This document shows positions 9,241 through 62,520 of a stretch of DNA of 64,000 bases, one piece after another (the stretch's first letter is position 1; each line of letters opens with the position of its first letter). The notes beneath the pieces were generated by a model that was given only the letters and a program-made list of their open reading frames with translations, was not told the DNA's origin and did not search any database. The translations under genes were made by a program, and so were the position numbers. Source of the stretch: Ophiura sarsii (taxonomy: Eukaryota; Echinodermata; Ophiuroidea; Amphilepidida; Ophiuridae). The stretch spans positions 102,049,606 through 102,113,605 of the forward strand of contig CM069441.1 of the NCBI GenBank assembly GCA_035610835.1. The letters run 5' to 3'.

Positions 9241-9250
9241 TTCAAAGAAC

Positions 9251-31711: not shown

Positions 31712-31771
31712 CTACGCTGCTGAATGGAATGGTATATTGGTTTCATCATTAGATGAATGAATTTTTATACA

Positions 31772-32084
31772 AGGCCAAACAAAGAAGGTCTGTCTCAGGA
31801 GCCCGCCTGCATTGGTATGTGAAATGAGCTATGGCGCTTAGGTCTATGCGCTGAGGGCTAAAAAACCTCTTCTTTTTTTCTTTTTTCTTAGGATTTTTTT
31901 TCTTTCTTTTTTTTCTTTTTTTCTTTTTATGATTTTTAAAAAAAAGTTTTAAAAAAAAAGTTTAAAAAAAAATCAATCGCATACCTCAGCCTATTTTTAA
32001 AAAGAATAAATAAAAAAGAAATCGCACAGCACTTGCCATATTTGCAAAATGTTTTTGAGACAGACTTTCTTCTTTGTTTGGCCT
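31772..32084. mobile_element. GGCCAAACAAAG MITE (copy A)
   Basis: The left end AGGCCAAACAAAGAAGGTCT then GTCTCAG is inverted at the right end as TGAGACAGACTTTCTTCTTTG then TTTGGCCT (32056-32084). The interior is A/T homopolymer-rich. It is present in both duplicate copies, so it is older than the duplication. Confidence 0.8.
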
Positions 32085-32904
32085 AACAGTCAACTTCAAA
32101 TGTGTCTACATTACCAGCGGTATCTAAACAAATAGAAGTGTGAATGGCATCTGCTGCTCCAAATATAGGTCAGACAAACCAGATTTTTAAAATCAATTTT
32201 TATCACCTTAAGGACATAATGCCCCCATATTTTCCATTTTTTTGTAAAAATCTATAAAAATCTACTTCAAATTTGATAACAAGATATGATGTTTTTCATA
32301 ACCCAGCTATTCTGTAAGAATAATTTGATTACTGAAAGTAAGTTTTAGCTATGCGATACGTTGCATCGAATACCTTCCGACTTTCTCAGGCAACTAAACC
32401 TGTGGGCTGGACATAAAGAAGGCTATCGCTTCATGAAAGTGTTATCTGTATTATCAGAATTCCCCCCCCCCCCCCCCCGTTCAGTTTTAGGAACCTATCA
32501 GACACTTATTTGCTTTTGATGCAGAATATAAAAAAGGGGTAATTTGTGGATTGCATTTTTTTAAAAGTGACGAAAATAATAATTACTTAGAACCCATTAT
32601 CAGTTACCAAATCAGGACATGAGAACAAAAGCTTAGAAAATGCCTTATTTTGCAATTTTTTTGCTCCATTTCTCTGGATAATTTTAAAAGCTTTGCTGAC
32701 AAGGTTTAACTTTTGGCCTGATGATATTTTACATTAGTTGTCGATGCTGCCATGGCATTAAAGTGAAACTGTACCTCTCTCTATACATAATCTACATTAT
32801 TTCAATTCCAAACAAGCAATAGATGAACTTGATATAGGAAAGGGAAAATGTTTCTTTTATAAATGAGCCATGATTTAAAAAAGCTGCTGTAAATATGTAT
32901 CAAT

Positions 32905-33150
32905 TAACCCAAACGCCCCTGAGTACTCCAAAATACTCCAAGCAAGCCTATCTCCAAGCGCATGTGCGGACGGTTAACGATTACGTAATCAACCGAGCCT
33001 ATATAGTGAGCACAGTATACTGCCCGAACGAGTAGTTGAGAGCTGTGGATTGTGTATGGACGCTGTGAAAAACGAAGAATATACGCAATTACAAAATACA
33101 ATACCCAATCTCTTTCAATTTTCAATATTGGCAAACACAAAATAAAAACT
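32905..33150 (+). repeat. Diverged SINE-family copy (copy A)
   Basis: CTCCAAGCGCATGTGCGGAC, ATTACGTAATCAACCGAGCC and GAACGAGTAGTTGAGAGCTG match in order the 5' part of the repeats at 34903-35165 and 56096-56370. The tRNA-like B box is lost. The same frame with the same translation at 45105 is due to the duplication, not selection. Confidence 0.6.
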
Positions 33151-33670
33151 GAAATTATGGGTTGGTCTGCAGGGGTCGCATTCTGACGCGTCTGCGCGTC
33201 CTAGACCTCTCACTTTCTAATAGTGACGCGTCAGGTTTCAAATTGGAAAGACTTGGGGGTCCCGATCAAAATTGAAGGGACCCCTTAAATTTGAAGATGT
33301 ATGGAAATGGAAACCTTAAGAAATTCTGTACATTACATATCCATCCTTTCCTCACAATATAAATTCATTGAAACTGCCCATAAAAAAGTAAAATTTTCAA
33401 ATACCCAAACTTCAGGACCCCTCAATTTCTTGGGGGACCCCTTAAATTTGTTTTTGGAAGTCCTACGGGGTCCTGAAAAATGTCATGGGACCTCTCACAT
33501 TTTTGATCCAGTGCTATCCCTGTTGGTCTGTCCTGTATGACATTTTCTTCCCTTGAACTATTCATCACATTGTTTTTGATTTGGTGTAAAAAGCTTGGGA
33601 CCATTACAATAGTATCAGCCAGAAATGGAATATTGTCATCATCAGTAAAGCATTGCAGTTTGTTATACTA

Positions 33671-34832
33671 CACTGAAAACGAAACCTGGTTTGCCCTACT
33701 AAACAAAACTTAGTTAAAACTATGTCAAGTACGACTAACTTATAACTAGTACGGCTAGGTTGGACTGAACTATTCGTACGTTAGGATGTACTAGGTGCTG
33801 GACTATCAAATATACTAGTTCAACTTTGACCTACTAATATAATAAACTAGTTAAAACATGCCCCACTAATATAATCGAGTGCTCTACTAATATATTGGGT
33901 GTTCTACTAATGGTCTCTACTAACCAAAATTATGTCAAGTACGACTTTTTTTTATCAGTCAGGCATACTGTACTAAAGCTTTTACTAGTTCAGCAGATTG
34001 AACTAGCATGTTAAGCTAGCTTGCCTCACTAAGCTAAAATACGTCGATCAAAATGGAAAGTTACGTGAAAATATCATTTTTCTCAACGTTTTTTAAAAAA
34101 TAAAGTTGTTTGTTATAATTTAAAATGAGATCGTAAAGCGTCATGCAAGGTAGGCAGGATTTTGTATGGTCAACTTTAAATGGTGTGTTTTGTACACACT
34201 TGTGCACATCGTCTGAGGTATGATGATCAGGTCTAGTGTATGTTTTATGTAGTCTGCAAAATTTTGCACCATTGGCATTGCATTACATTGCAAACTGGGC
34301 CAGTTCACGATGACCATACAAAATCCTGTCTAACTTGCATGACGCCTTATGATCTCACTCAAATTATAACAACAACTTTATTATAAAAACAACGTTGAGA
34401 AAAATGATATTTTCACGTACCTTTCTATATTGATCAGTATTTAACTCGGCAATCAGTCCCAGCTCAGTCCCCCACATGTAACATAAAGCGATGCACGATG
34501 TCGTCTGAGTAGGCTGACGCAATGCATGTGATCAAAACGGCGGTAAAATTCAACTTTAGTACAACCAGGGACTCGTACGTCGTGAAACGTTAGTAGGACG
34601 TCTTTCACGATGAATCTAATTTTCATTTATTAGTACAGCAGACAAATTTGGAATAGTTGAGCATGTCCAGCTAACAATTTACTTCGATCCATATTATACT
34701 TGTCAAGCATATTAGTTTGACACCGAGTCGTCCATTAAAAACTAGTTCACCCAGTGTTACTAAGCTTAACTATTAGTCCTACTAAACAATGGCTTAGTTC
34801 AGCCTCCAAAATACGAGTTTGTGTTTTTAGTG
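33671..34832. mobile_element. CACTGAAAAC MITE (copy A), 1.16 kb
   Basis: Begins CACTGAAAACGAAACC and ends GTTTGTGTTTTTAGTG, with TA on both sides (33669-33670 and 34833-34834). The interior near both ends is full of ACTAGTT/TACTAATA words. Long inverted segments occur at 34060-34130 and 34370-34430 (ATCATTTTTCTCAACGTT and its inverse). It is present in both copies, so it predates the duplication. Confidence 0.85.
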
Positions 34833-34902
34833 TATAGTATGCAATGCATTATACATGTATTGCCTGATCTTTGGTTTAATCGGTAGATAATGCTATAATT
34901 CT

Positions 34903-35165
34903 TAACCTAACCCCCCTCCCCCAAATGCTAATACTACTTCTCAGCCTATCTCATGCGCATGTTCGGACGATTTTCAATGACGTAGTCAACCGAGCCTACA
35001 TAGTGAGTGATGAATACTGCGCAAACTAGTAGCTGAGGGTCGTGGCTTAGTGGGTGGGATGATGTGTGGAGTGTCCCCAGATCGATTGATTGGTGTTTTT
35101 TCGTTTAAAATTGTGATCCCGGTATAAAACCTGGTAAGGGTTGGGTTATGGTATCCAAATTGATT
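34903..35165 (+). repeat. SINE-like repeat, + strand (copy A, unit 1)
   Basis: AACCTAACCCCCC, a CATGCGCATG segment, ATGACGTAGTCAACCGAGCC, and TGGCTTAGTGGGTGGGATGA (A-box-like) appear in the same order as in the minus-strand copy at 56096-56370. The B box is worn. Confidence 0.65.
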
Positions 35166-35186
35166 TTTTGTTGTTGGTGTTTTATT

Positions 35187-35436
35187 AACCCTAATCACCC
35201 CCCCCCCCCAACCCCATGCTAAAAAAAATACTTCTAAGACTAGCTCCAAGAACATGTGCAGGCCGTTTTCGATGACGTTATCATCCGTATACTGCGCGAA
35301 CAAGCAACTGAGGGTTGTGGCTTAGTGGGTGGGATGACGGGCTGATGTGCAGATGAGGGTACAAGGCGATTTAGTTGGTGTTTTTTCTTCCAACATTGTG
35401 ATCCTAGAAAAAACTGGTTAGAGGGTTCGGGTTAAC
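35187..35436 (+). repeat. SINE-like repeat, + strand (copy A, unit 2)
   Basis: Directly follows unit 1, with AACCCTAATCACC, a C-run, CATGCTAAAAAAAATAC, TTTTCGATGACGTTATC, and GTGGCTTAGTGGGTGGGATG. The two units form a tandem pair. Confidence 0.6.
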
Positions 35437-35459
35437 ATGCAATTTACACAACATATTCT

Positions 35460-35870
35460 GAACATTGCTATCTTCAGTAGATAGCATTGCAGTTTGTTAT
35501 ATGCATTTCATTATATAATCTCAATCTGAATATTGAATATTGAATGTTTTTTCATTCATGCAATGGTACAAATATTTTCATTCGGTGAAATATGATCCCA
35601 TCTATCACCTCATGAAAATAGTTGTTACCATTGCACTCATAAACTTTCATTATTTGTGTACATGTACTATAATTCTTAATATACAATTTACATATATAAC
35701 AGAAACTGAACTTTGCTATCTTTAGTAGATAGCAGGCAGTTTGCTATATGCAATGTATTATTTAGATACACATTGCTATAATCAGTGAATAATATATATG
35801 ATACTTCTTAATATGCAATGTACACAACAGAATCTGAATATAGCTTTCTTCAGTAGATATCATTTCTGTT
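35460..35870 (+). repeat. Repeated hairpin motif GCTATCTTCAGTAGATAGC
   Basis: The near-palindrome GCTATCTTCAGTAGATAGC and variants occur at about 35468, 35717 and 35841, each followed by a GCAGTTTGTTATATGCA-type sequence. Related motifs are seen inverted at 41741-41760 and 41817-41836. Confidence 0.65.
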
Positions 35871-36902
35871 ATTTCCTTTTATTCTTATTCAATTCATACA
35901 AAACTACTACAGATCTAAGTGCAAATTGAATAAAAAATACACCAGAAATGTTTTTCCTTTCCATTTATATCTCCACATGTCCCAGCAGTGTTTTAAATTA
36001 ACATTATGTTGCCTTATACTTAACAGTCCATTAAAACTCCCTTTAAGGCTCCCAACAAGTACCCCTTATCTGACATTATCTTTGTTGAATTTCGTCTCAA
36101 GCATCAATTATTCTCCCTTTATAACTAACATTTGACATCAACTCTAATTCACATTAATTAACGCAACCATTCAGTTTTAATGTGAACTACTACGTACAGT
36201 GTTCCTAGTCCTCCTTGTAGGGATGCTATCCAGGGAAATATGATTGAATATAGAAACACTGAGCCATGTCATCCTAGTTTTGATCTCAGGAACAGTTTGG
36301 ATATGTATAAATCTAAGCATTTTTGCATTTTGAACCCATATATGACCTTTGACCTCTGATAGCAGCCTTAATTAAGCTGCACAATTGAAAAGTCTAGCAC
36401 GCAAAAAACATTTAGTAGAAGTTAAAGGAACAATTTGGTGATGCTCTAGTTTACCCCTACACATGATACAACAAAACCACTCGGCCCAAGGACTATGACT
36501 GAGGAGAACAGTTCAAAAACATATTCATGAGCAAGTAATGACCTGAACTGTGAATCTAGTAACGGTAAGTGATGCGTGCCCTGCCTGGACTGTAGCAAAT
36601 AAGTGACATCAACACTTTCAAGTATTTCTCATTTGTACTTTCGGGCAAATATTAGCCAGCCAATGTCTGGTGTGACTTCAGAATCATGTGTACTGTTACA
36701 TGATAGGCCTCCTTGGCTAGCCAAGAGTGTAAGGGGCCTAATGCAAAAGGTTTTAATACTAAGGGCACCAAAACCCCTAAATCAACTTCTATTAAAGTAA
36801 AAGCAATTCAAATATCAATATACATCACGATTTACCCTTTGAACAGAGGTCTTTTAAATATAGACAAATGTGCACTTTTTTAGCGTTATATCACAGACTA
36901 TA

Positions 36903-37042
36903 CACTGTAAAAAGAAATGTTTATATTTCTGATAACACTTAATAAACACTTCTCCTATACCTTTACACGTAAAACACAAAAATAAACGTGTTGAAGTGTT
37001 TATTAAGTGTTATTAGAAATATAAACGTTTCTTTTTACAGTG
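36903..37042. mobile_element. CACTG MITE, 140 bp, copy A only
   Basis: CACTGTAAAAAGAAATG and inverted CGTTTCTTTTTACAGTG are the ends of a full-length palindrome. The flanks are TA (36901-36902 and 37043-37044). The empty site in copy B (about 49408-49418) reads CAGACTATAGAGG, which proves insertion with a TA duplication. The ends fit EnSpm/CACTA-like or Tc1/mariner MITEs. Confidence 0.92.
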
Positions 37043-37221
37043 TAGAGGAAGGGACAATGAAGTGGGCGGCAACGCTTGATCCATGATCGTTTTGGCAATA
37101 CAGTTACGTAAACGTGATTTGGACTTGTGTTCAGGTCAAGCGTCAATGGGAACGTTGTATGTGCATGATGTAGATATAGATAGATGACAATAACTTTGAT
37201 ATTATATTTTTATAGCCTATA

Positions 37222-37614
37222 GGTGATTACGGAGTGACGTCACATGCCGTTGACCACAAACTACGAGAATTCAAACAAATTCAGATTGCACCAACACCAA
37301 AACGGCCAAAATTTAACCCTTTTTGTACTCCCGTGAAATATTACCATCGAACAGAATATTTGACAAAGTGATTCCTCTACATACTCATGTTATCATATTT
37401 ACACATAATGCAAGTTTTCACATGTTTTTTACAAGTCAAAGTCTGAAAATCGAGTGAAACATTTTACGAATTTCGGAAATATTGCTCATGTAAACAACGG
37501 TCGCTTACACAGCTACACATGGTCACTAGGAACGTTCTTCTGTATGGTCGAGTAGAGCGTAGACTTGATTTTGATGCTTTGTAGTCAACGGCAAATTGAA
37601 GGTCCGTAACCACC
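37222..37614. mobile_element. GGTGRTTACGGA MITE, about 393 bp, copy A only
   Basis: GGTGATTACGGA and inverted TCCGTAACCACC, both bounded by TA, enclose sequence absent from copy B, where the flanks join near 54882-54905. CGTTGACCACAAA and TTTGTAGTCAACG are mirrored inside. The exact edge is uncertain by a few bases, because the flank changed slightly. Confidence 0.75.
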
Positions 37615-38282
37615 TATATCACACCTGTTGCAAAATTCAAATGGTTTGGTCAATTTTCCGAATTCGGAGTTCATCTCAGTCACTGCGAACAAATTGTTTT
37701 AATTCAACTAGGTACACTAACCTTATTCTCATTTTACGTGTGGACAAATTTAACGGAATTTTTGTATTTAAAAAAATGTTTGTGAATATTTCCAGCTGTA
37801 TATCTCAGAAACGCAACTATCGAATGGCCTGATTGTTTTCGATAGTTGAATTCCCCCGTCATGTTCAATTCTACCATATTTACTTTGGCTGATCCAATGA
37901 TCAAGAATGGATAGTTACACTTTTCTGTTATTTTCAATGAGATCTAACTTGTTTTGATCCAGCGAATACATGGAACCATTATTTTGCTCAGAGTGGGCGT
38001 CGGCCGTTATAGGGACGCTCATTGGCTGAGTGGTAGAATGAAATCATGGGTCATTAATCGCAACAGCTACCTGCTAAACAATCATAGGGCTATGGATTTG
38101 CGGCGGGTATTTTGAGAATCAATCTTGATTGTCCCTTCCTCTATAGTCTATGGTTATATCTATGCTTAACCCATTCGGTGCTTCAGTGCTGTGTAAGTGG
38201 TTTGGGAAAGTTACCCAGTGGGGCTTTTCACGTGTAACAGTATTGTGAATCCCCTTGAAGTAACTCAATCAACAAATTTACC

Positions 38283-38612
38283 TGGTGGGGGTACTCGGAT
38301 TTGGTTTGGTCGGGAGTGTGCCGCTGGAGATTCAAAACCCCTACCCATTTCTTGAAAAAATGATACCCATTTCTAAGGATTTTGCTTCATTATAGACCCA
38401 ATTCTCGCAAATTACCAGGAAAATAGACCCACTTTTCAAAAATTATTTGCGAAAATAGACCCATTTGTAAAAAGTGACCCCAATATTAGGGATTTTCCAG
38501 CACAAAATCATACCCATGTTTAGGGAATGTTTGCAAAAAAACGACCCATTAGCATTAGAGCGGCACATACCCGTATACAGTAGTAGGCGAGTGCCCCCCC
38601 CCCCCCACCCCT
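38283..38612 (-). repeat. ATGGGTC-rich dispersed repeat (copy A)
   Basis: Reverse complement of 9757-10078, with the homopolymer (C run about 38595-38606) at the same end. Also present at 55549-55882. Confidence 0.7.
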
Positions 38613-38819
38613 GAGACATGAATGAGGCATGTTGGTGTTGAGGGGAATACTTATATGGTATCATTGATTGGTCAGTTTGACCACGCCTCACTGTGTTGGC
38701 TGTTTCACATAGTGTTGTATACAGCGTTTGATGCTAGGGATGTGCTCATTTACATCCCACAGTCCGAATAATTCCTCAACATATTGTAGCTTGAGCATGT
38801 TGAATGGATCTATCATATA

Positions 38820-39735
38820 AGCCCTAACCAAACTAAATCTCTGGGAACCTGCCGGGATTTGATCCGGGGACCCTCCGTTCTCAAGCCCCATGTCCCACCC
38901 ACTAAGCCAGGGCCCTGAGCTACTCGTTCGCACAGTATACAGGGTGTATCAAAAAAATTAGGACACTTTTTGATGATGGTTTAAATCCTTGTTAAATCAC
39001 TGAAGCATGACCAATTTTTATTTCAATGTAAAGTACAACTGATAAAGATACAATCCTGAAAAGATGAGAAAAATCCATCATTAATTAAGGAAATTGTGAC
39101 CTATTAGGTAAGGCAGTCTATTTTGTAGTATGTACAATGGCCATTCACACAGTAACAGTAGAGTAACATGAACGTGCACACTATTTATGCCAATTCTACT
39201 TCTTATCATGCTAATGAACCATCCATCGTGGGTTCGAGAACTTGTTTAATTTGCACAGAATATGCATGCATCTGATTTGTGGATTAGTTAGCCAGTTTTG
39301 ATTTGTGCACAATTAAATGGATTACCAAACTAATCTTTGCTATTGACTGATAGACTACTTTCTATGTTCATAATTATTGTAACGTATTGAAACGTAAACC
39401 ATGTTATTTACTGGTCTATACATGTAAATCCCATTGTACAAACCAGTAAATGACATGGTTTACGCAAATTATGCTAGTTTTCTTATTTTTCATCGGATTG
39501 ATCTCATATTTTCAGGATATCATAATAATTAATTGGGCTTTACCTTGAGACTAAATTGGTCATGGTCCAATGATTATATCAATTATTACACCGTCATGAA
39601 AAAGTGTCCTATTTTTTTGATACACCCTGTACTGCGCTTATAGGCTTGGTTGACTACGTCATCAAAAACCGGCGGTGCATGCCCTTGGAGAGGGACTTAG
39701 GATTGGCATTTTTTTAGCATTCAGGGGGTTATGGT
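38820..39735 (-). repeat. tRNA-derived SINE, minus strand, split by a MITE (copy A)
   Basis: On the minus strand TGGCTTAGTGGGTGGGACAT (A box) and GGATCAAATCCC (B box) lie at about 38847-38925, inside a repeat with the order GCATGCACCGCCGG, GTAGTCAACC, CGAACGAGTAGCTCAGGG. The unit is interrupted by the foldback element at 38940-39629. Copy B (56096-56370) shows it uninterrupted. Confidence 0.7.
38940..39629. mobile_element. Foldback mariner-like MITE, 690 bp, copy A only
   Basis: Ends CAGGGTGTATCAAAAAAATT and, inverted, TTTTTTTGATACACCCTG. The target TA is at 38938-38939 and 39630-39631. The empty site in copy B reads CACAGTATACTGCGC (about 56257). The arms pair for well over 100 bp and the centre carries a perfect-looking hairpin (39399-39464). 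The CAGGGTG...CACCCTG ends and the TA duplication fit Tc1/mariner. Confidence 0.93.
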
Positions 39736-40139
39736 TAATAATAATAATAATAATTAGTATTTATATAGCGCCTTTCCAAAGTGATCAAAGTGCTGTAATT
39801 TCGCTGCTGGTGAATCATCAGAATCAGGTCGCATCAACTAGGGTGCTGCCAATTTCTAGCGCAAACCTATCCGCACTTAGATTGTAACATCTACCATTTT
39901 TCAATGCAGCTCCCCAAATACCATTGGGGCAAGGAAGTTTTTGATAACCGAAACAACTAATCACAGATTTTGAAAGCAGGAGGAAACCGGAGATCCCGGA
40001 GAAAACCTGCGAGAGCGTGTATGGATCGTGATAAACCAAATGCACATAAAGCCCGACCAAGCATAGATTTCGAACCCGGGATTCATTGGTGCAAAGCGAG
40101 GGTATCTACCGCTGCGTCAACACGCTCTCCCTGTAGGTC
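39736..40139 (-). mobile_element. tRNA-derived SINE, about 400 bp, copy A only
   Basis: On the minus strand the head has GCAGCGGTAGATACCCTCGC (A box region) and GGGTTCGAAAT (B box), a body with GTTTTCTCCGGGATCTCCGG, and a 3' end GGCGCTATATAAATACTAAT followed by an (ATT)n tail at 39736-39760. Copy B lacks it (about 56366-56376). A clear target duplication is not seen. The 3' end resembles the LINE end at 61316. Confidence 0.88.
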
Positions 40140-40329
40140 CACATGGAATTCCACTCATTTACTATACTATATGCACATGTTCTTTTCCCCAAAAGAAGAA
40201 TGTCAGCTAAAATGCAGAAAGCGTTGCTTCTATCCCTAGATAACTGGTCAACTTTAACCGACACAGGGTGTACAATACCATCCTGTATTGAACCATCTTT
40301 AACACAGGGTTGGCGATTCTTTTAATTAA

Positions 40330-40400
40330 AATATATATATAACAAATCAGATTTATTTGATTTAAATCTGATTTATTCGATTTAAATCAGATTTTTTAAT
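40330..40400. repeat. ATTTGATTTAAATC tandem palindromes (copy A)
   Basis: AATCAGATTTATTTGATTTA and related words are repeated and self-complementary. Copy B (56577-56650) has an extra unit. Confidence 0.8.
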
Positions 40401-41417
40401 TTTTAATTTTTTTAAAATTCTTTTGATTTCAACCTAACATACCCTTTGACTGTTCCAACCCTGCTTTAACATCTTAGTTCAATATCCTGATGTCCAAATA
40501 CCCAAACCCGCAGCACGCAACTATAACATCTGATCATGTATGTTGCCTTCTGGGGTTACACTACAGGATTTGAATATCATTCCCACCGGCAAATAGGTCA
40601 ATTACTATGGTATACGTATCTCTATGGTAAATCTATGCAGAACATGGATGATAGGGAGGAAACAAGTCTTTAGAAATAAATCCCACATAGAACCTGTCGC
40701 TTTAGAGAGTAAAATATACCGTGGGAAGTTCTGAATATCTGCTGAATATAGTCAATCATCATATGAATAAAAGCATTTTATCATTTTTAAGGGGAAAAAA
40801 TCATAGTTATACAACTCGTTACCAGCTATCTACTTCAATACTAGTATTCTCCTGATGTCCTGACATAGCAACCAGTCATCGTAAACCACAGATAGACTAT
40901 CGTCTTCCAGTATCATTGCCAGTGACACTTGATGAATACCAAACTGTCATCAATTATTTGTTAGGATTTGGTATAGATGTATGCCACCCACTGTGCAGGT
41001 GTGTGTGTAGTCTATACTGCAAGAGCTATCATTACATCCTATAGCTGCCTAGTATTTGCTAATATTTCAGATAAGGCGACGAAAAAAACCCCTCATCTTG
41101 TCCTACGAGCGAAAAGGACCACTCCGGTAGGGTTGATTGGTTGGTTTGGCATTGGTGGGATTTTTTTTGGGGGGGGGGGGCTGTCAACATGTTCAGTGAA
41201 TTTTCAACAACAAAAATCACACATTTTTGAAAATGCCCGACATTTTTCCAAGTTTTTTATAAAAATTCAAAACATTTTCTTAACAAATATCGAAAAATTG
41301 TTGTAAATTTGGATTTCTTTTGGATTTTTTTTTAGAAAAATGAGTCAGTTGGGCGTGTAAAACAGGGTTTTTGTTGTTGTCTTAGATGTACTTTGGGTCC
41401 TAGGCATGCATTTATTA

Positions 41418-41577
41418 CTGTAAAAGCCAATATTTTCGGGCATTTTTATATCATACCTTCTGGATGCACTGCATGAATTTTGAAAACAATATTTTTGCAT
41501 GTTATAATTTTCTCGAAAAAATCTTTTGCGCAAAAATCGCGAAAATAAAATCACCGCGAAAATTTCAGCTTTTACAG
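41418..41577. mobile_element. CTGTAAAAGC MITE with internal deletion (copy A)
   Basis: Same ends and interior as 13355-13545 and 57648-57842, flanked by TA. It lacks about 35 bp (the TTTCGCGATTTTTTTC region) present in copy B. Confidence 0.85.
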
Positions 41578-42059
41578 TACACGTTAAGATATAATGCTTC
41601 ATAGTAACCATTATTTAATGCACATAAACATGATAAATATTGAATGCCTGGGTCCTAAAACACACTCTTTCCAACATTTCTAATATCTACACGCATTTTC
41701 GGTAAGATATTAGTTTCATATTATGAATTCCAGTGCTATCTACTGAAGATAGCATTGTTGAAGTTACAGTGATATCTCCTGCATGTTATTGTTAATGCAT
41801 AGTGTGAATTGCAGTGCTGTCTACTGAAGATAGCAATTGTTATCTACTGATGATTAGAATGGTTTAGATTTTGATGATGATGTCATTATTTTTATCTCCT
41901 GAAGATACCAAAATTCTGATCCTGTATGTTATTCTATGTTTGTTTTAGGATGTGACATAATTCAAGGAATTCTCCCCTGTAATGTCAATATGTCAATTAC
42001 TATAACATTTGTTACATATTTTGCAAGGCAGCTGAGGGATGTAATCCCCCTTTGCCACA

Positions 42060-42300
42060 TGTAGCACATGTTATGTAGCAAACCAATGTTACAATCCAAA
42101 TGTTGCAAATGAATGGTGCTCCCATGCTACATCTTGTGTATAATGTGTGGAGACATGATAGCCCTCTTTTCTCATGTTGCACATGATATGTTGCAAAGTA
42201 TGTGTTGACAACTATTAGTTGCTACATTTTGCGATGTATCAATAGCCCCTGTCACTCATGTAGAACATGGTATGTTGCAAACTTAAATGTTGCTACAGCT
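42060..42300 (+). repeat. Degenerate GCACATGTTATGTTGCAAA minisatellite (copy A)
   Basis: Words of the type CACATGTTATGTAGCAAAC, CACATGATATGTTGCAAAG and GAACATGGTATGTTGCAAAC recur every 60-110 bases. Repeated in copy B at 58320-58560. Confidence 0.55.
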
Positions 42301-44005: not shown

Positions 44006-44295
44006 AGGCCAAACAAAGAAGATCTGTCTCAGCAAGCCCGCCCGCATTGGTATGTGAAATGAGCTGGCGCTTAGGTCTATGCGCTGAGGGCTCAAAAACT
44101 TATTTTTTTCTTCTATTTTTTTGTTGGATTTTTTTTTTTATGATTTAAAAAAAAAAGTAAAAAATAAAAAAATAGCAAAAAACAAACAAAACACATACCT
44201 CATAGCCTATTTTTAAAAAATTAATTAAAAAATCGCACAGCACTTGCCTTATTTGCAAAATGTTTCTGAGACAGACTTTCTTCTTTGTTTGGCCT
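44006..44295. mobile_element. GGCCAAACAAAG MITE (copy B)
   Basis: Duplicate of 31772-32084, with more divergence in its A/T homopolymer interior. Confidence 0.8.
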
Positions 44296-50788: not shown

Positions 50789-50935
50789 TAAATGTGCATT
50801 AAATAATCGTGATTTAGCCGACAATTTTTTTAAAAATAAGCTTATTATTATTTTTTATTATTTTTATTTTGATGAATGAAATGATGGATAATTCCAGAAT
50901 CAAATGTTTAGAGACATTTTGGGAATCTCGGGTCC
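50789..50935 (+). repeat. Left direct repeat flanking the satellite array
   Basis: CATTAAATAATCGTGATTTA then GCCGA and GATGAATGAAATGATGGATA through ATGTTTAGAGACATTTTG is repeated in the same orientation at 54470-54608. It brackets the tandem array. Confidence 0.88.
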
Positions 50936-51094
50936 CAAAATGGGCCCCGGGATATCGACTTAGTCTAAAAAATGATGGATACCATGATAAAATGTGTCCC
51001 GATGTGATTTTTTGGATGATTTCACATTTTGAGCTACTTATGTCTGTGTACTGTATTCCCTTTACGAAAATGCAATCACCAAAATGTGATTGCA

Positions 51095-51330
51095 GCAAGG
51101 TGGTACCAGGTTGCACAAGGTTGTCGCACGGTTGCGTAAGGTTGCACAAGTTTGTCACAGGTTGTCGCACGGTTGCGTACGGTTGCACAAGTTTGTCGCA
51201 AGGTTGCACAAAGGTTGTGGATGATTGCTTCAAGGTTGCGCAACCTTCTCAGAACAACCAAACTGGTTGCGCAATTCAAGGTTGTATTTTTCCAAATTTA
51301 ACCTTGCGCAAGGTTGCAGAATTGATTGCG
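51095..51330 (+). repeat. GGTTGCACAA decamer minisatellite
   Basis: GGTTGCACAA, GGTTGTCGCAC, GGTTGCGTAA and GTTTGTCACA variants follow one another more than 12 times. They yield Cys-rich or Gly-rich translations on both strands, so the open frames across it are artefacts. Confidence 0.85.
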
Positions 51331-51399
51331 ATTTTCATAAGGGACGGGTCAAACTGCAACACATTTGACGCAGAAAAAAAGTGTCCAGCAATTTAGCCT

Positions 51400-54300
51400 A
51401 AAGAAATGAATGGACACCATAAAATGTGTACCGATTTGAATTTTGGGGATTTTTTTCACATTTTGAGCTACGTATGAAGTCTGTGTAGCTAACCGGTCAA
51501 ACCGCAACATATTTGACGGAGAAGAAAAAAATCTGACAATTTAGCCTAAAAAATGACAGACACCATAAAATGTGTCCTGATTTGATTTTTTGGATATGAT
51601 TTCACATTTTGAGCTATGTATAAAGTCTGTGTAGCTAGCCGGTCATACTGCAACACATTTGACGGAGAAAAAAAAATCATACAATTTAGCCTAAAAAATG
51701 ACAGACACCATAAAATGTATCCTGATTTGATTTTTTGGACATGATTTCACATTTTGAGCTGCGTATAAAGTCTGTGTAGCTAACGGCTCAAACCGCAACA
51801 CATTTGACGGAGAAAAAAACATTCCGGCAATTTAGCCTAAAAAATGGCGGATACCATGAAATGTGTCCCGATTTGATTTTTTGGATATGATTTCACATTT
51901 TGAGTTACGTATAAAGTCTGTGTAGCTAGCCGGTCATACTGCAACACATTTGACGGAGAAAAAAAAATCAGACAATTTAGCCTAAAAAATGACAGACACC
52001 ATAAAATGTGTCCTGATTTGATTTTTTGGACATGATTTCACATTTTGAGCTGCGTATAAATTCTGTGTAGCTAACGGGTCAAACCGCAACACATTTGACG
52101 GAGAAAAAAACATTCCGGCAATTTAGCCTAAAAAATGGCGGACACCTTGAAATGTGTCCCAATTTGATTTTTTGGATTTGATTTCACATTTTGAGCTACG
52201 TATGAAGTCTGTGTAGCTAGCCGGTCATACTGCAACACATTTGACGGAGAGAAAAAAAATCCGACAATTTAGCCTAAAAAATGACAAACACCATAAAATG
52301 TGTCCTGATTTGATTTTTTGGCCATGATTTCACATTTGGAGCTGCGTATCAAGTCTGTGTAGCTAACGGGTCAAACCGCAACACATTTGACGGAGAAAAA
52401 AACATTCCAGCAATTTAGCCTAACAAATGGCGGATACCATGAAATGTGTCCCGATTTGATTTTTTGGATATGATTTCACATTTTGAGTTACGTATAAAGT
52501 CTGTGTAGCTAGCCGGTCATACTGCAACACATTTGACGGAGAAAAAAAAATCAGACAATTTAGCCTAAAAAATGACAGACACCATAAAATGTGTCCTGAT
52601 TTGATTTTTTTGACATGATTTCACATTTTGAGCTGCGTATAAATTCTGTGTAGCTATAACGGGTCAAACCGCAACACATTTGACGGAGAAAAAAACATTC
52701 CGGCAATTTAGCCTAAAAAATGGCGGACACCTTGAAATGTGTCCCAATTTGATTTTTTGGATTTGATTTCACATTTTGAGCTACGTATGAAGTCTGTGTA
52801 GCTAGCCGGTCATACTGCAACACATTTGACGGAGAGAAAAAAAATCTGACAATTTAGCCTAAAAAATGACAGACACCATAAAATGTGTCCTGATTTGATT
52901 TTTTTGACATGATTTCACATTTTGAGCTGCGTATAAATTCTGTGTAGCTATAACGGGTCAAACCGCAACACATTTGACTGGGAGAAAAAGAAATCTGGCA
53001 ATTTAGCCTAAAAAATGACGGACACCATAATAATGTGTCCCGATTTGATTTTTTGGATTTGATTTCACATTTTGAGTTACGTATAAAGTCTGTGTAGCTA
53101 GCCGGTCATACTGCAACACATTTGACGGAGAAAAAAAAATCAGACAATTTAGCCTAAAAAATGACAGGCACCATAAAATGTGTCCTGATTTGATTTTTTG
53201 GACATGATTTCACATTTTGAGCTGCGTATCAAGTCTGTGTAGCTAACGGGTCAAACCGCAACACATTTGACGGAGAAAAAAACATTCCGGCAATTTAGCC
53301 TAAAAAATGGCGGACACCTTGAAATATGTCCCAATTTGATTTTTTGGATATGATTTCACATTTTGAGCTACGTATAAAGTCTGTGTAGCTAGCCGGTCAT
53401 ACTGCAACACATTTACCGGAGAAAAAAAAATCTGGCAATTTAGCCTAAAAAATGACGGACACCATAAAAAGTGTCCCGATTTGATTTTTTGGATATGATT
53501 TCACTTTTTGAGCTACATATAAAGTCTGTGTAGCTAACGGGTCAAACCGCAACACATTTGACTGGGAGAAAAAGAAATCTGGCAATTTAGCCTAAAAAAT
53601 GACGGACACCATAATAATGTGTCCCGATTTGATTTTTTGGATTTGATTTCACATTTTGAGTTACGTATAAAGTCTGTGTAGCTAACGGGTCAAACTGCAA
53701 CACATTTGACGGAGAAAAAATAATTCCGGCAATTTAGCCTAAAAAATGACAGACCCCATAAAATGTGTCCCGATTTGATTGTTTGGATATGATTTCATTT
53801 TTTGAGCTGCGTATGTAGCTAACGGGTCAAACCGCAACACATTTGACGGAGAAAAAACATTCCGGCAATTTAGCCTAAAAAATGGTGGACACCATGAAAT
53901 GTGTCCCGATTTCATATTTTGGATATGATTTCACATTTTGAGCTACATATAAAGTCTGTGTAGCTAGCCGGTCATACTGCAACACATTTGACGGAGAAAA
54001 CAAATCCGACAATTTAGCCTAAAAAATGACAGACACCATAAAATGTGTCCTGATTTGACTTTTTGGACATGATTTCACATTTTGAGCTACGTACAAAGTC
54101 TGTGTAGCTAACCGGTCAAACCGCAACATATTTGACAGAGAAAACAAATCCGGCAATTTAGCCTAAAAAATGAGTGACACCATAAAATGTCTCCCGATTT
54201 GATTTTTTAGATATGATTTCACTTTATGAGCTACGTATAAAGTCTGTGTAGCTAACTGGTCAAACCGCAACAAATTTTATGGAGAAAAAAATTCCCGGCA

Positions 54301-54420
54301 ATTTAGCCAAAAAAATGACGGACACCATAAAATGTGTCCCGATTTGATTTTTTTGATATGATTTCACTTTTTGAGCTACGTGTAAAGTATGCGTATAATG
54401 AACTGATCAAACCGCAACAC
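51400..54420 (+). repeat. Satellite array, about 21 units of 146 bp
   Basis: CTGTGTAGCT recurs at 51481, 51627, 51772, 51918 and so on to about 54245, at steps of 145-147. Each unit carries CAATTTAGCCTAAAAAATG, GATTTGATTTTTTGG and GATTTCACATTTTGAGCT. Two unit types alternate: one with TAGCCGGTCATACTGCAAC plus GACAGACACC, the other with TAACGGGTCAAACCGCAAC plus GGCGGAYACC. Units at the edges are the most diverged, as expected for unequal exchange. It is not coding and has no spacer-repeat structure. Confidence 0.95.
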
Positions 54421-54469
54421 ATTTGACGTATCAAATGATGTTCGCATTTCAAATTTTATCTCCAATATA

Positions 54470-54608
54470 TGTTTACATTAAATAATCGTGATTTAGCCGA
54501 AAAGGTGTTTTTAAGTAAGCTTATTTTTATTATTTTTGTTTACTATTTTGATGAATGAAATGATGGATAATTTTCAAATCAAATGTTTAGAGACATTTCG
54601 AGAATCAA
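54470..54608 (+). repeat. Right direct repeat flanking the satellite array
   Basis: Partner of 50789-50935. It differs by small indels in the T-rich middle. Confidence 0.88.
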
Positions 54609-55548
54609 ACTATCCATTATAACAACACATCGCTAACAATGTGAGTGTGACAGTCATCGAATCTGGTTCCGCTGGGATCCTAAAGTACCAACCACATTAA
54701 AAATGTCTACCGAAACCGCTCAACCAAAAACCATGCAACCCGATAACCGCAAAACCCGCGAACCGCGAAGCCCGAGAACCGCTCTAGTTTGGACTTGTGT
54801 TCAGGTCAAGCGCCAATGGGAACGTTGTGTGTGTATGATGTATAGGGATAGTTGACAATAACTTTGATATTATATTTTTATAGCTTATGTCATGCATGTC
54901 ACAAAATTCAAATGGTTTGGTCAATTTCCCGAATTTGGAGTTCATCTTAGTCACTGCGAACAAATTGTTATAATTCAACTAGGTACACTAACCTTATTCT
55001 CATTTTACGTGTGGACAAATTTAACGGAATTTTTGTATTTAAAAAAATGTTTGTGAATATTTCCAGCTGTATATCTCAGAAACGCAACTATCGAATGGCC
55101 TGATTGTTTTCGAAAGTTGAATTCCCCTGTCATGTTCAATTCTACCATATTTACTTTGGCTGATCCAATGATCAAGAATGGATAGTTACACTCTTCTGTT
55201 ATTTTCAATGAGATCCTACTTGTTTTGATCCAGCAAATACACGGGACCATTATTTTGCCCAGAGTGGGCGTCGGCCATCATAAAGACGCTCATTGGCTGA
55301 GTGGTGGAATGAAATCATGGGTCATTAATCGCAACAGCTACCTGCTAAACAATCATAGGGCTATGGATTTGCGGCGGGTATTTTGAGAATCGATCTTGAT
55401 TGTCCCTTCCTCTATAGTCTATGGTTATATCTATGCTTAACCCATACGGTGCTTCAGTGCTGTGTAAGTGGTTTGGGAAAGTTACCCAGTGGGGCTTTTC
55501 AAGTGTAGCAGTATTGTGAATCCCCTTGAAGTAGCTCAATCAACAAAG

Positions 55549-55882
55549 TTACCCGGTGGGGGGTACTTGGATTTGGTTTGGTCGGGGTGTGCCGCTGGAG
55601 ATTCAAAACCCCTACCCATTTCTAAGGGATTTTAGAAAAAACGATACCCATTTCTAAGGATTTTGCTTCATTATAGACCAAATTCTCAGGAAAATAGACC
55701 CACTTTTCACAACTTATTTGCGAAAATAGACCCATTTGTAAAAAGTGACCCCAATATTAGGGATTTTCCAGCACAAAATCATACCCATGTTTAGGGAATT
55801 TTTGCAAAAAAGCGACTCATTAGCATTAGAGCAGCACTTCCCCGTATACCGTATTAGGCGAGTGCCCCCCCCCCCCCCCCCG
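55549..55882 (-). repeat. ATGGGTC-rich dispersed repeat (copy B)
   Basis: Duplicate of 38283-38612. The C run is longer here (55865-55881). Confidence 0.7.
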
Positions 55883-56095
55883 AGACATGAATGAGGCATG
55901 TTGGTGTTGAGCAGATAGCAACTTCTTCAAGGGGAATACTTATTATAATGGTATCATTTGATTGGTTAGTTTGACCACGCCTCACTGTGTTGGCTGTTTC
56001 ACATAGTGTTGTACAGTGTTTGATGCCATGGGATGTGCTCATTTTCATCCCACAGTCCGAATAGCTTGAGCATGTTGAATGGATCTATCATATAA

Positions 56096-56370
56096 GCCTA
56101 ACCCCGGTTTAGGGCTTTTGACCGGGATCACAATTTTCGAGGAAAAAGAACACCAACTAAATCTCTGGGAACCTGCCGGGATTTGATCGGGGGACCATCC
56201 GTAATCAAGCCCCATGTCCCACCCACTAAGCCAGGGCCCTGAGCTACTCGTTCGCACAGTATACTGCGCTTATAGGCTCGGTTGACGACGTCATCGAAAA
56301 CCGGCGGTGCATGCGCTTGGAGAGGGACTTAGGATTGGCATTTTTTTAGCATTCAGGGGGTTAGGGTTAG
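56096..56370 (-). repeat. tRNA-derived SINE, minus strand, uninterrupted (copy B)
   Basis: Same unit as 38820-39735 without the MITE. On the minus strand it has TGGCTTAGTGGGTGGGACAT (A box) and CGATCAAATCCC (B box), then GAGATTTAGTTGGTGTTC, as in the plus-strand units at 34903 and 35187. It gives the complete order of the family. Confidence 0.7.
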
Positions 56371-57647
56371 TAGGTTCACATGGAATTCCACTCATTTACT
56401 ATACTATATGCACATGTTCTTTCCCCAAAAGAAGAATGTCGGCTAAAATGCAGAAAGTGTTGATTCTATCCCTAGATAACGGGTCAACTTTAACCGACAC
56501 AGGGTGTACAATACCATCCTGTATTGAACCATCTTTAACACAGGGCTGGCGATTCTTTTAATTAAAATATATACATAACAAATCAGATTTATTTGATTTA
56601 AATCTGATTTATTTGATTTAAATCTGATTTATTCGATTTAAATAAGATTTTTTTTATTTTATTTTTTTTAAATTCTTTTGATTTCAACCTAACATACCCT
56701 TTGACTGTTCCAACCCTGCTTTAACATCTTAGTTCAATATCCTGATGTCCAAATACCCAAACCCGCAGCACGCAACTATAACATCTGATCATGTATGTTG
56801 CCTTCTGTGGTTACACTACAGGATTTGAATATCATTCCCACCGGCAAATAGGTCAATTACTATGGTATACATATCTCTATGGTAAATCTATGCAGAACAT
56901 GGATGATAGGGAGGAAACAAGTCTTTAGAAATAAATCCCACGTAGAGCCTGTCGCTTTAGAGAGTAAAATATACTGTGGAAAGTTCTGAATATCTGATGA
57001 ATATAGTCAATCATATGAATAAAAGCATTTCATCATTTTGAAGGGAAAATAATCATAGTTATATACAGCCAGTTACCAGCTATCTACTTCCATACAAGTA
57101 TTCTCCTGATGTCCTGACATAGCAACCAGTCATCGTAAACCACAGATAGACTATCAGCTTCCAGTATCATTGCCAGTGACACTTGATGAATACCAAACTG
57201 TCATCAATTATTTGTTAGGATTTGGTATAGATGTATGCCACCCACTGTGCAGGTGTGTGTATATGCAGTCTATACTGCAAGAGCTATCATTACATCCTAT
57301 AGCTGCCTTGCTAATATTTCAGATAAGGCAACGAAAAAACTCCTCATCTTGTCCTACGGGCGAAAAGGACCTCTCCAGTAGGGTTGATTGGTTAGTCTGG
57401 CATTGGTGTTTTTTTTGGGGGGGTGTCAACATTTTCAGTGAATTTTCAAAAAAAAATCAAACTTTTGAAAATGTCCAACATTTTTCAAGTTTTTCATAAA
57501 AATTCAAAACATTTTCTTAACAACTGTCGAAAAATTGTTTTAAATTTGTATTTAAAAAAAAAATCAAATTAGAAAAATGGGTCAGTTGGGCCAGGGTTTT
57601 TGTTGTTGCCTTAGATGTACATTGGGTCCTTAGGCATGCATTAATTA

Positions 57648-57842
57648 CTGTAAAAGCCAATATTTTCGCGCATTTTTATATCATAGATATTTCGCGATTT
57701 TTTTCTTCTCCCGCGGGTGACCTTCTGGATGCACTGCATGAATGTTGAAAACAATATTTTCGCATGTTATAATTTTCTCGAAAAAATCTTTTGCGCAAAA
57801 ATCGCGAAAATAAAATCTCAGCGAAAATTTCAGCTTTTACAG
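57648..57842. mobile_element. CTGTAAAAGC MITE (copy B, fuller)
   Basis: 195 bp with ends CTGTAAAAGC and GCTTTTACAG and TA at 57646-57647 and 57843-57844. It retains the TTTCGCG-rich stretch deleted in copy A. Confidence 0.85.
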
Positions 57843-60130
57843 TACATGTTTTAAAGATATAATGCTTCATAGTAACCATTATTTAATGCACATAAACAGG
57901 ATAAATATTGAATGCCTGTGTCCTAAAACACACTCTTTCCAACATTTCTAATATCTACACACATTTTTGGTAAGGTATTAGTTGCATATTATGAATTCCA
58001 GTGCTATCTACTGAAGATAGCATTGTTGAAGTTAGAGTGATATCTCCTGCATGTTATTGTTAATGCATAGTGTGAATTGCAGTGCTGTCTACTGAAGATA
58101 GCAATTGTTATCTACTGATGATTAGAATGGTTTAGATTTTGATGATGATGTCATTATTTTTATCTCCTGAAGATACCAAAATTCTGATCCTGTATGTTAT
58201 TCTATGTTTGTTTTAGGATGTGACATAATTCAAGGAATTCTCCCCTGTAATGTCAATATGTCAATTACTATAACATTTGTTACATATTTTGCAAGGCAGC
58301 TGAGGGATGTAATCCCCCTTTGTCACAGCACATGTTATGTAGCAAACCAAATGTTACACTCCAAATGTTGCAAATTAATGGTGCTCCCTTGCTTCATCTT
58401 GTGTATAATGTGTGGAGACATGATAAGCCCTTTTTCTCATGTTGCACATGATATGTTGCAAAGTATGTGTTGACAACTATTAGTTGCTACATTTTGCTAG
58501 GTATAAATAGCCCCTGTCACTCATGTAGAACATGGTATGTTGCAAACTTAAATGTTGCTACAGCTGATGTTATGTTTGTACAAGGCACATTATAATCCAC
58601 ATCTGGGTATTTGATTGCATGGCTATAACACCTGGATATTTTCTTTTGTTTTGATACAGATGAATAATTAATTCCACCTATCACATTGCATTCAATCAAC
58701 TGGGTTGACCAGGGATATTTATTGCCACCTGCCCACGTGTCATACCTATCATCACCTGTTTGGAGCAAGAGGAATGTGTGTTACACTGAGGGAGTGGATT
58801 GAACTGTTGTAATACTTTCCACATGTGGTATGCAATCTTGTTTTAATGTTCAGGTAAGTGTGTTTGTTTTGAGTACATTACTTTTGCAATTTGATTGATG
58901 GAATTGACTTATTTATCCTCTTCGCTGTAAGCATACTGTAAGTGATTTGGCCAATTTGCTTGTGTCAATGTCCTGAAATAGACGCGTGAGGATTTTTCGT
59001 TTTCATTTTTCAATTCATAATTACTCACTGCCTCTGAAGGGCTGAAGCTGGCTGTCTTAAATCTGAAAATTGTATTTGCTCATTTTATTTCAGGGTTGTT
59101 ATACCAAAGGGGAAAAAGAAGAAGACATTAACAAGTCTTCTTACAAGACAGTTTTGTAATACAGGACTAGTGAATAGTTTGTCTCTGTAAATTGGCTTAG
59201 CTGTGGTATGCGATTTGTGCGGTATTTGATTGGGCTTGAGTCAGTATTCTTATTTGTGTGTTGCTAGTCGATATCGATGAAACTGTGGGATCTTATATCT
59301 GTTTGTGTCTCGCATTAGTCCAGAATTGTGAATGAATTATGTCTATTTGTAGCTTCACACAGATGACAATCATGATTTGATAATCTTGTTTACAGTTGTG
59401 ATTGGATAATGAATCGTCTGTGTATTTCATCATGTTCATTGGTTATTCTATCATGTAACCGCTCTGCTAGTTGTCCATAAATAGCAGGTTTTGATTAGTT
59501 TACACACACACATGTGTGCAGATTTCTCGATTTGTTCAACAATGAACAGTTGGTTGTCAAATGCACAAAACACTTCACAATGTCCATCACTTACACAATT
59601 ACATTGACAACTGGAAATGTACTGGACAACAAAGAACTAGAAAACCAGGGATAATGTATAATCAAAGAGTTATTATAGTAAACTGGAGAAGGCATGAGCA
59701 TTGAACCCATGGTGCTATAGTGGGTTGTCCTTTTCGCGTTTGTCACAATATTACCCACAGTTCATTGGGTGTTCATAGGTAGAGTAAATCCATCCAGTCT
59801 TCACTATTAACACACACTCTTTTTAAATGCCGGCGATATAGAGTGACGTGGGGATCTAGTCTAGTTGAAAGCATCATGGCGGCCTTCAATAGTTTGTAAG
59901 ACGATTACAAATTCATTCATAGTTTGGCCATATAGACGTGTCATACGGTTACCATCTAAAAAGCAAAATGTTGCTAAAAGTAGTGTATACACATTGATTT
60001 TCAACATTATGTGCAACAGTATGCGACTTCATGATAATTAACGAAAAACGAATTACATTTTAATTAGGCTACTTTTGTTGCGGCGTGGCCAACAAATCGG
60101 GTGCTGCCCGCCTGCAAAAAGTTGAGCTAT

Positions 60131-61380
60131 TTATACTCTTCAACTTGGACAAATCATTAAAAAACACAGTCTCTCGTATCATATTTATGCGGATGATACG
60201 CAAATTTACACCACTTTCAATCCCAAAGATCAGACATCTATCAACAATGCACTTTCGTCAATTGCTTCTTGTATTACGGAGATAAAATCATGGATTATAC
60301 TCTTCAACTTGGACAAATCATTAAAAAACACAGTCTCTCGTATCATATTTATGCGGATGATACGCAAATTTACACCACTTTCAATCCCAAAGATCAGACA
60401 TCTATCAACAATGCACTTTTGTCAATTGCTTCTTGTATTACGGAGATAAAATCATGGATGACCAAGAACTTTTTGAAATTAAACGAGGACAAAACTGAGT
60501 TCCTGGTTCTTGGGTCACCTCATTCCACACGTATCATGCCTACTGTTGAACTCAACATTGGAGATAGTTCCATAAAACCGACAACAAGTGTGCGTAATTT
60601 AGGCGTTCTCTTTGACTCTAACATGTCTATGTCAGTCCATATTGCCAATCTCCGTCGTAATATAAGCTTCCATCTCCGCAACATGTCTAGAATTCGCCGT
60701 TTTCTTGACTACAATTCATGCCACCATGTAGCTCGTGCACTCATACTTTCTAGACTTGATTACGGAAATTCGCTACTTTTTGGTTCAAATGAATCTGATC
60801 TCAACAAATTACAATCATTACAAAACTGGGCAGCGCGCCTTGTCTGTGGAGGCAGAAAAAGAGACTCGGCATCTCCATTGCTCAAAGAACTTCATTGGCT
60901 CCCGTTGCGACAGCGTATTATCTACAAACTGTGTGTTCATATATATATAAATGTATTAATGATACTGGACCTATCTATCTGAATCAGTGCATTGCTCATT
61001 ATGTACCTGGTCGACCTGGTCTTCGATCTGGGTCTGATCGATCTCTCCTAGTTGTTCAACGTACAAAAAACTCTGCCGCAGATAAATCTTTCACTGTTGC
61101 TGGTCCTTAACTATGGAATGATCTACCCAACAACATCAGACTCTGTGAATCCTTACAAGTTTTCAAAAAACAACTGAAGACTCATCTGTTTCCTACTTAA
61201 TTGTTCTTTCTGTATACATGTAGTACTAGTTTTTATTGGTACATTTTGATTCGTTTGTTGATTGTACCTTTTTGTTTTACTTGTTTGCTGCCTGCGCCGT
61301 GATCTAAATGAACTAGCGCTTTATAAAATCTCTCATATGTATGTATGTATGTACAATGTATGTATGTATGTATGTATGTA
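60131..61380 (+). pseudogene. 5'-truncated CR1/L2-like LINE with YADD reverse transcriptase, copy B only
   Basis: The frame at 60269-60982 encodes the C-terminal half of a reverse transcriptase: HIYADDTQIY (the catalytic Asp pair at residues 30-31), LNEDKTEFLVLG, VRNLGVLFDSNMSM, RALILSRLDYGNSLLFG and LLKELHWLPLRQRI. A frameshift in the (TA)n stretch near 60940 moves the rest to frame 1 (GPIYLNQC, YVPGRPGLRSGSDRSLL). After a TAA at 61108-61110 comes LWNDLPNNIRLCES to the TAA at 61198-61200. The order fits Jockey-superfamily LINEs (CR1/L2). The endonuclease and the RT fingers are missing (5' truncation). The 164-bp segment holding YADD is duplicated in tandem (60132-60295 and 60296-60459), which itself breaks the frame. 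The 3' UTR ends GCGCTTTATAAAATCTC with a (TATG)n tail. Copy A keeps the empty site AGCTATCGATGTATCGGG (43897-43914). Confidence 0.92.
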
Positions 61381-61382
61381 TC
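61337..61382 (+). repeat. (TATG)n microsatellite tail of the LINE
   Basis: ATGTATGTATGT repeats, with one ACA interruption, directly follow the LINE 3' end and run into the target TATCGATG. Confidence 0.88.
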
Positions 61383-61632
61383 GATGTATCGGGCTACTTT
61401 TTGCTGTAGCCTAGACGGTACTTACGCTGCGATTTAGGAGACATTTTAGTTTACAAACCAGTAACGTAATAAGAGGATTACGAGGGACAGACCTGGGTTG
61501 AATGCGGCCAAACAACTGCGTTAACAAAGACAAATGAAGTGGCGTTGCTTTTGTTGGTTGTAAAGAAATGATTGACAATATCAACTTTTATTTCTTGTGC
61601 ATTCTCCATTCTAATACTGCCTTTGTATAATA

Positions 61633-62518: not shown

Positions 62519-62520
62519 TA

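Follow-up and report, generated by a model that had tools for sequence, protein, structure and literature searches.

The stretch of DNA analyzed here, which we call the window, is a 64-kb segment of Ophiura sarsii (C1:102049606-102113605) in an assembly totalling 1,573,662,873 bases. Base counts give the window a GC content of 37.0% and no N, and echinoderms are among the named relatives of its retroelement proteins. Self-comparison of the window reveals a single long direct pair of sequences, namely copy A (31713-43946) and copy B (43947-61421), which follow each other with zero spacer and are built on a unit of about 12 kb. The copies are adjacent, in direct orientation, longer than 1 kb and more than 90% identical, as is expected of a segmental duplication, and quite probably represent a single genuine head-to-tail duplication of the ~12-kb unit that was later modified by substitutions and by seven insertions of seven element types.

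In terms of the A/B homology, BLAST gives eight direct blocks (Table 1), and the divergence was measured by aligning these blocks separately; a global MAFFT alignment of the entire copies (6.4% mismatch) was dropped, as the 5.3-kb insertion got smeared across many gaps. The two copies are 96.3% identical over 10,347 aligned columns, with 380 substitutions (3.7%; Kimura two-parameter distance, 3.8%) consisting of 195 transitions and 185 transversions, and 75 small indels totalling 458 bp also separate them. A prediction made previously from the letters of this DNA (hereafter, the original prediction) had called the copies almost the same sequence, which is to be read with these differences in mind; its limits of copy A and its start of copy B are retained, but copy B was found to end at 61421 and not at 61430. 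It had also assigned four private insertions to A and three to B, and indeed seven breaks of more than 100 bp separate the blocks, all within about 5 bp of where they had been placed (36903, 37221, 38941 and 39741 in A; 48507, 49488 and 60131 in B). The private segments total 1,615 bp for copy A and 6,921 bp for copy B, and the difference of 5,306 bp agrees with the predicted one of 5.3 kb (6.9 versus 1.6 kb).

Table 1. Coordinates of the duplication and of the elements inserted in it (positions in the window)
Feature	Position	Strand	Remarks
Copy A of the tandem duplication	31713..43946	+	left edge at TACGCTGC, 31713; homology at the right end reaches 43949, TAC being shared
Copy B of the tandem duplication	43947..61421	+	runs on into the right flank
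A/B blocks 1-3	31713-36371/43947-48506; 36368-36902/48880-49412; 37043-37119/49411-49487	direct	BLAST
A/B blocks 4-6	37118-37220/54788-54888; 37615-38940/54886-56264; 39630-39740/56262-56372	direct	BLAST
A/B blocks 7-8	40133-43902/56370-60130; 43900-43946/61379-61418	direct	BLAST
Low-divergence tract	32141..35484 (A)	+	1.29% A/B divergence versus 4.49% elsewhere; none of the seven insertions inside
A1, near-palindromic MITE, 140 bp	36903..37042	.	ends CACTGTAAAAAG; TA target duplication; empty site at B 49411-49412
A2, 394 bp	37221..37614	.	ends TAGGTGRTTACGGA, inverted; target duplicated as TA or TAT; B empty near 54886-54888
A3, 689 bp	38941..39629	.	ends CAGGGTGTATCAAAAAAAT, inverted; target duplicated as TA; B empty near 56262-56264
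A4, SINE-like, 392 bp	39741..40132	-	(ATT)n tail, 3' end GCGCTATATAAATA; 5' end tRNA-like to the eye; target duplication not evident
Dispersed repeat R, left part, where copy A ends	43482..43946	+	465 bp closing copy A; interrupted at the junction
A/B junction	43942..43961	+	GACGG-TAC-GCCGCTGAATGG; the truncated R of copy A meets the first bases of B
B1, near-palindromic MITE, 373 bp	48507..48879	.	ends AGGYATATTATGTGATC; TTAA duplication; multi-copy family
B2, mobile element, 5,300 bp	49488..54787	+	satellite array between a left (49488-51346) and a right (54429-54787) module; preceded by TT and followed by T; CTCTAG at the 3' end
Satellite array in B2	51347..54428	+	~21 monomers of 146 bp in dimeric (291-bp) order
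B3, 5'-truncated LINE, 1,248 bp	60131..61378	+	reverse transcriptase domain; (TATG)n 3' tail
Repeat R in copy B, crossing the B/right-flank border	61379..61616	+	left part at 59717-60130
MITE, miniature inverted-repeat transposable element; SINE and LINE, short and long interspersed nuclear element.

The left outer edge of the pair reads GGC-TACGCTGC-TGAATGG, and the right outer edge reads GGTACT-TACGCTGC-GATTT. Within the window, the 8-mer TACGCTGC occurs solely at 31713 and 61423, i.e., at both outer edges; as a baseline, some 8-mer was common to a pair of randomly drawn places in 2,674 out of 200,000 draws. The microhomology at the join of A and B can be described either as the 3-bp TAC (43947-43949) or as the 8-mer with 4 bp missing and one substitution, and a microhomology-mediated duplication would fit both descriptions, using either TAC or the 8-mer with later small changes. 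The join is, furthermore, located inside a dispersed repeat (R). Six dispersed loci of R were fetched and five of them aligned (L003, L004, L005, L006, and L008; L007 was not aligned); in all five, R extends through the sequence that follows copy B (61422 on). R in copy A ends at the junction, and the start of B comes next. L006 has additional sequence further inside R, and L007 matches both sides of R with extra sequence in between. Because R is continuous past B and cut in A, the A/B join is the derived one, and the ancestral state is found where B meets the right flank.

MITEs flanked by TA duplications are Tc1/mariner-like, and those flanked by TTAA duplications are piggyBac-like. Among the insertions, A1 and A3 have terminal inverted repeats together with TA duplications as in the former, and B1 has terminal inverted repeats with a TTAA duplication as in the latter, these superfamily labels being putative. 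The original prediction had expected target duplications to be readable at all seven sites, which holds for TA at 36903 and 38941, TTAA at 48507 and TA or TAT at 37221, but not for 39741 and 60131 (no duplication, or an ambiguous one of 0-3 bp) or for 49488, where TT appears to belong to the element. Further copies of the B1 family exist at 1091-1835 and outside the window, with TTAA on both sides in one out of four checked (91.6% identical); those at 1091-1835 are two degenerate MITEs adjoining each other, four bases apart. In A4, the resemblance to a tRNA is by eye only, with no tRNA called by ARAGORN or Rfam, and its tail motif GCGCTATATAAATA resembles the motif GCGCTTTATAAAAT of the LINE B3. 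B3 itself has the reverse transcriptase domain, the 5' truncation and the 3' tail of a retrotransposon without long terminal repeats (non-LTR); only the terminal portion of the domain is retained (RVT_1, 31.1 bits versus a cut-off of 29.6), and a database protein matches the 205-residue query at 99% identity across 95% of the latter. A 165-bp tandem repeat (99.4%, 60131-60459) begins precisely at the 5' border of B3, which suggests that it arose during copying, as if the enzyme slipped back once. Since five of the six fetched R loci run through the site of B3 with no B3 in it (L007 is unclear there), B3 is considered an insertion and not a loss from copy A. For A1, A2, A3, A4, and B3, no further match was obtained in the 274 kb outside the window.

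The largest insertion, B2, consists of a left and a right module around a satellite array, in which monomers two apart are 91.3% identical and neighbors 86.3%; a stretch of short repeats (10-bp units, 51090-51217) lies ahead of the array. Three copies of the B2 type, including B2, were found within 156 kb and have identical first and last bases; the two relatives are 6,190 and 4,089 bp long, and their left modules differ from that of B2 by 1.3-1.4%. None of the three has a long reading frame, the longest open stretch being 192 codons in B2, 208 in the 4,089-bp copy and 135 in the third copy. Seven whole copies measured range from 4,089 to 6,190 bp. In a genome-wide search with the left module, a first look gave 1,394 candidates, and all of the 40 scored (B2 included) match from base 1 with an identity of 98-100%, and B2 is therefore more recent than the split between A and B. 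TT stands directly ahead of ATGAGATGAC in all 23 copies examined (two of which share one flank); among 20 copies, the base preceding this TT is A 11 times, T seven times and G twice. At the other end, all seven copies have CTAG followed by T, and six of them have TT there. The empty site in copy A is GTGATTTGG, and the simplest model would be an element TTATGAG...CTCTAG inserted before T with no target duplication. TT as a 2-bp target duplication is less likely than TT as a part of the element, given one copy (L048 with L053) with TT before and TA after. Also, two B2 copies on C2 near 86.98 and 86.94 Mb (L039 and L040), 42 kb apart, have the same 22-base 5' flank, pointing to another local duplication.

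Two stretches of the duplicated region were searched against the 1.57-Gb genome. With positions 43000-43900 as the query, two full-length matches, corresponding to A and B, and 43 partial matches, mostly in the R part, were obtained (40 of 348 candidates scored). The query 31500-31860 is matched across 31713 at its own locus only, and the start of B is matched from 31713 on (40 of 1,949 candidates scored); the remaining 38 matches begin at or past 31751 and represent a short dispersed repeat. Neither a third copy nor a separate haplotig was found with these two queries, which cover the left edge of the unit and a part near its right end, and a diverged partial copy may exist elsewhere. There is no N in 174 kb including both copies and the sequence downstream, and the 274 kb surrounding the window contains just two N runs of 100 bases each, the nearer of which begins 641 bp upstream of the window. 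As described in the assembly-related parts of the genome paper (PMC11139871), hifiasm was used on high-fidelity (HiFi) reads with an N50 of 12,313 bp, followed by Purge Haplotigs, and Hi-C data were also generated; the contig N50 is 311,019 bp, the scaffold N50 is 78,030,574, and the mean heterozygosity of the species is 1.97%. With the gap-free join, the lack of a third copy for the two queries, R cut at the junction and the window-unique 8-mer at the edges, the tandem duplication proposed in the original prediction is supported and most likely real.

The divergence between A and B is patchy. When the low-complexity positions 31860-32010 were left out, the substitutions were found to be clustered, with an index of dispersion of 4.38 versus at most 2.06 over 2,000 permutations, and the best-segment fit delimits the tract at 32141-35484 with a log-likelihood gain of 40.6 (maximum of 7.8 across 20 permutations). 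A tract like this would be produced by gene conversion, by recombination between alleles or by constraint. The position of all seven insertions outside the tract is not significant (P ~0.065) and possibly due to chance, and was rejected as evidence of conversion. At the substitution rate used for a different brittle star in PMC11310086 (1.885e-9 per site per year), the divergence of 3.8% would translate into some 10 million years, which is only a crude estimate. Because there are at least two levels of divergence, a single common date for the seven insertions was rejected. In the proposed course of events, a break or a replication switch would have linked a point inside R (the end of the unit) to an upstream point (the start of the unit), with the microhomology at TACGCTGC/TAC used for joining. 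The copies would then have gained substitutions together with four MITEs having terminal inverted repeats, a SINE-like element, a truncated LINE and a 5.3-kb Helitron-like element with its own satellite array, and the tract at 32141-35484 was probably homogenized later by gene conversion.

Several points nonetheless weigh against this account. The N50 of the HiFi reads, 12.3 kb, roughly equals copy A in length and falls short of copy B; the substitutions in R (43482-43902 versus 59717-60130), compared with the six dispersed copies, are derived in A at 14 positions and in B at 2, with 8 undecided, an asymmetry for which we have no explanation to offer; a patchy divergence is expected of a pair of alleles as much as of gene conversion; and the A/B divergence of 3.7% is less than twice the mean heterozygosity, with which allelic sequences would be compatible. 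A and B might then be two haplotypes of one single-copy locus misjoined by the assembly, that is, a heterotype false duplication in which the insertions are ordinary polymorphisms. Indeed, 3.7% with indels is within reach of a polymorphic marine animal, the patchiness resembles a haplotype pair, and the lack of a separate haplotig for the two queried stretches fits both readings; Purge Haplotigs acts through the removal of redundant contigs, so that a duplication inside a contig could escape it. Only 3-8 bp are common at the join, however, and a HiFi overlap graph needs far longer shared sequence than that; also, a random join would be unlikely to place a window-unique 8-mer on both outer edges. 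False duplications are, according to the sections of PMC9516828 on their features, mostly separated by gaps and at half depth, whereas no assembly gap lies between A and B. Because the join is gap-free with microhomology and because R is cut in A but continuous past B, we favor the tandem duplication and consider a haplotype misjoin unlikely.

Alternatively, the duplication might be real but formed by unequal exchange between already diverged alleles, several insertions predating it; this possibility, to which we would give a minor though appreciable weight, overlaps with the tandem duplication favored above, in which the order of events is left unfixed. Template switching between homologues would give the same microhomology join, mosaic divergence suits recombining alleles, and the A/B divergence stays below twice the mean heterozygosity. 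Nothing direct speaks against such an exchange, but the divergence outside the tract (4.5%) exceeds the species mean, and B2 is young either way. A duplication between two old alleles would bring in insertion differences that pre-exist. For this reason, and because the divergence is not of one age, the claim of the original prediction that seven families were active after the duplication is weakened and not established in an animal with ~2% heterozygosity; what the structure of the insertions suggests is that they postdate the split of the A and B sequences, and comparison among copies independently indicates a recent age for B2 only. It is also conceivable, albeit very improbable, that some private segments were lost by precise excision or deletion from the other copy rather than gained. 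TTAA elements are capable of precise excision, so that B1 is not polarized by its empty site alone and could be a loss. Excision of TA elements usually leaves footprints, but the empty sites of those at 36903 and 38941 are clean; no excision is known for SINEs, LINEs and rolling-circle elements. B3 is missing from dispersed copies of its target repeat R, and the B2 copies have a common 5' end in all 40 scored places and a common 3' end in the seven copies seen there.

Beyond the duplication, the window contains small two-copy tandem duplications at 9246-9454, 15484-15935, 19641-20029, and 20022-20207 (Tandem Repeats Finder; units of 93-228 bp, 86-96% matches), and such small tandem duplications are therefore common there. 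Just past copy B (61631-62520) lies an element whose inverted ends measure 334 bp (95%); it starts with CAGGGTGTCCC and adjoins TA. The region 24233-25582 is a remnant of a second non-LTR retrotransposon, in which 24746-25579 gives a zf-RVT-like match below the Pfam cut-off and 46% identity over 85% to a protein of Diadema antillarum. Rfam at gathering scores gave nothing across the whole window, and none of five scans (four of viral contigs and one of genome contigs) matched the short patterns taken from the duplication itself, the satellite, two MITE ends and the end of the SINE-like element.

The A/B arrangement is a natural before/after comparison, and while this kind of feature is ordinary, B2 is its most interesting part. 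Tandem copies with clean insertion differences offer, at a single locus, the unoccupied sites of seven element families, which help define the ends of elements in a poorly annotated phylum. Being young and abundant, B2 is a live case of satellite arrays being dispersed through mobile elements. If the reading of B2 as a rolling-circle-like element (see below) is true, its filled/empty pair gives its exact target and shows insertion with no target duplication. A lesson in a polymorphic animal is also that an insertion private to one copy is not equal to one inserted after the duplication.

Compared with low-copy segmental duplications (>1 kb, >90% identity) as outlined in PMC3878106, the A/B pair is alike in its 12-kb unit, 96.3% identity, direct tandem order and microhomology join, but is unlike them in that its divergence is mosaic, with two or more levels, and the lengths differ by 5.3 kb due to insertions. 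It also gives the same dot-plot picture as the false heterotype duplications covered in PMC9516828, with a divergence within the haplotype range, but differs from them in a gap-free join at a microhomology inside a dispersed repeat. As for B2, it is similar to a Helitron with a dimeric satellite inside. Canonical Helitrons have 5'-TC, 3'-CTRR, a hairpin 10-12 nt from the 3' end and an A|T target, as summarized in the text of PMC5148889 on their ends; B2 is alike in the 3' CTAG followed by T (7/7) and in needing no target duplication, and unlike in having TT instead of TC ahead of ATGAG (23/23) and A ahead of TT in only 11 of 20 copies. A hairpin 10-12 nt before the 3' end is absent from B2; in the region 8-35 bp from the end, there is just a 4-bp stem ~20 nt from the end (fold z-score of -0.60), and 53 of 200 shuffles fold equally well or better. 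Subterminal inverted repeats of 12-15 bp were not found between the first 80 and the last 150 bases, where the longest exact inverted match is 8 bp and is reached by 54 of 300 shuffles. Cg_HINE of oyster and DINE-1 of Drosophila, which are satellite-carrying non-autonomous Helentrons in the relevant passages of PMC7492417 and PMC4067079, are similar to B2 in lacking a long reading frame and in the order of TT, a left module ending in a short-repeat stretch, a central satellite of variable length and a right module. Unlike these, B2 has neither subterminal inverted repeats nor a convincing 3' palindrome, and its modules (1.86 and 0.36 kb) are longer, compared with the 60-bp right flank given for the oyster HINE in PMC7492417. 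Filing B2 as a HINE or as a canonical Helitron was rejected because it lacks these features of the former and the TC and hairpin of the latter.

The word Helitron is absent from the main text of the O. sarsii genome paper (PMC11139871), and the one paper matched in the literature for Helitron, satellite and brittle star together is on a slug. In the genome, Helitron_like_N has 150 scored matches (249 candidates), many of which are in open frames of more than 2,000 codons, and the Helitron genes of O. sarsii thus look intact. The end motif of B2 was not found in 8 Helitron Rep loci fetched out of the 150 matches, the fetched sequences (~3.5 kb each) being too short to exclude it. With Rep domains this common, a rolling-circle mover seems to be available in the genome as a candidate partner for B2. 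We would tentatively regard B2, though with less than even confidence, as a member of a large, very recently expanded rolling-circle-like family with non-standard ends (5'-TT, 3'-CTAG and no subterminal inverted repeats), which spreads preassembled arrays of the dimeric satellite, variable in length, across the brittle star genome, maybe via an undescribed lineage of Helitrons.

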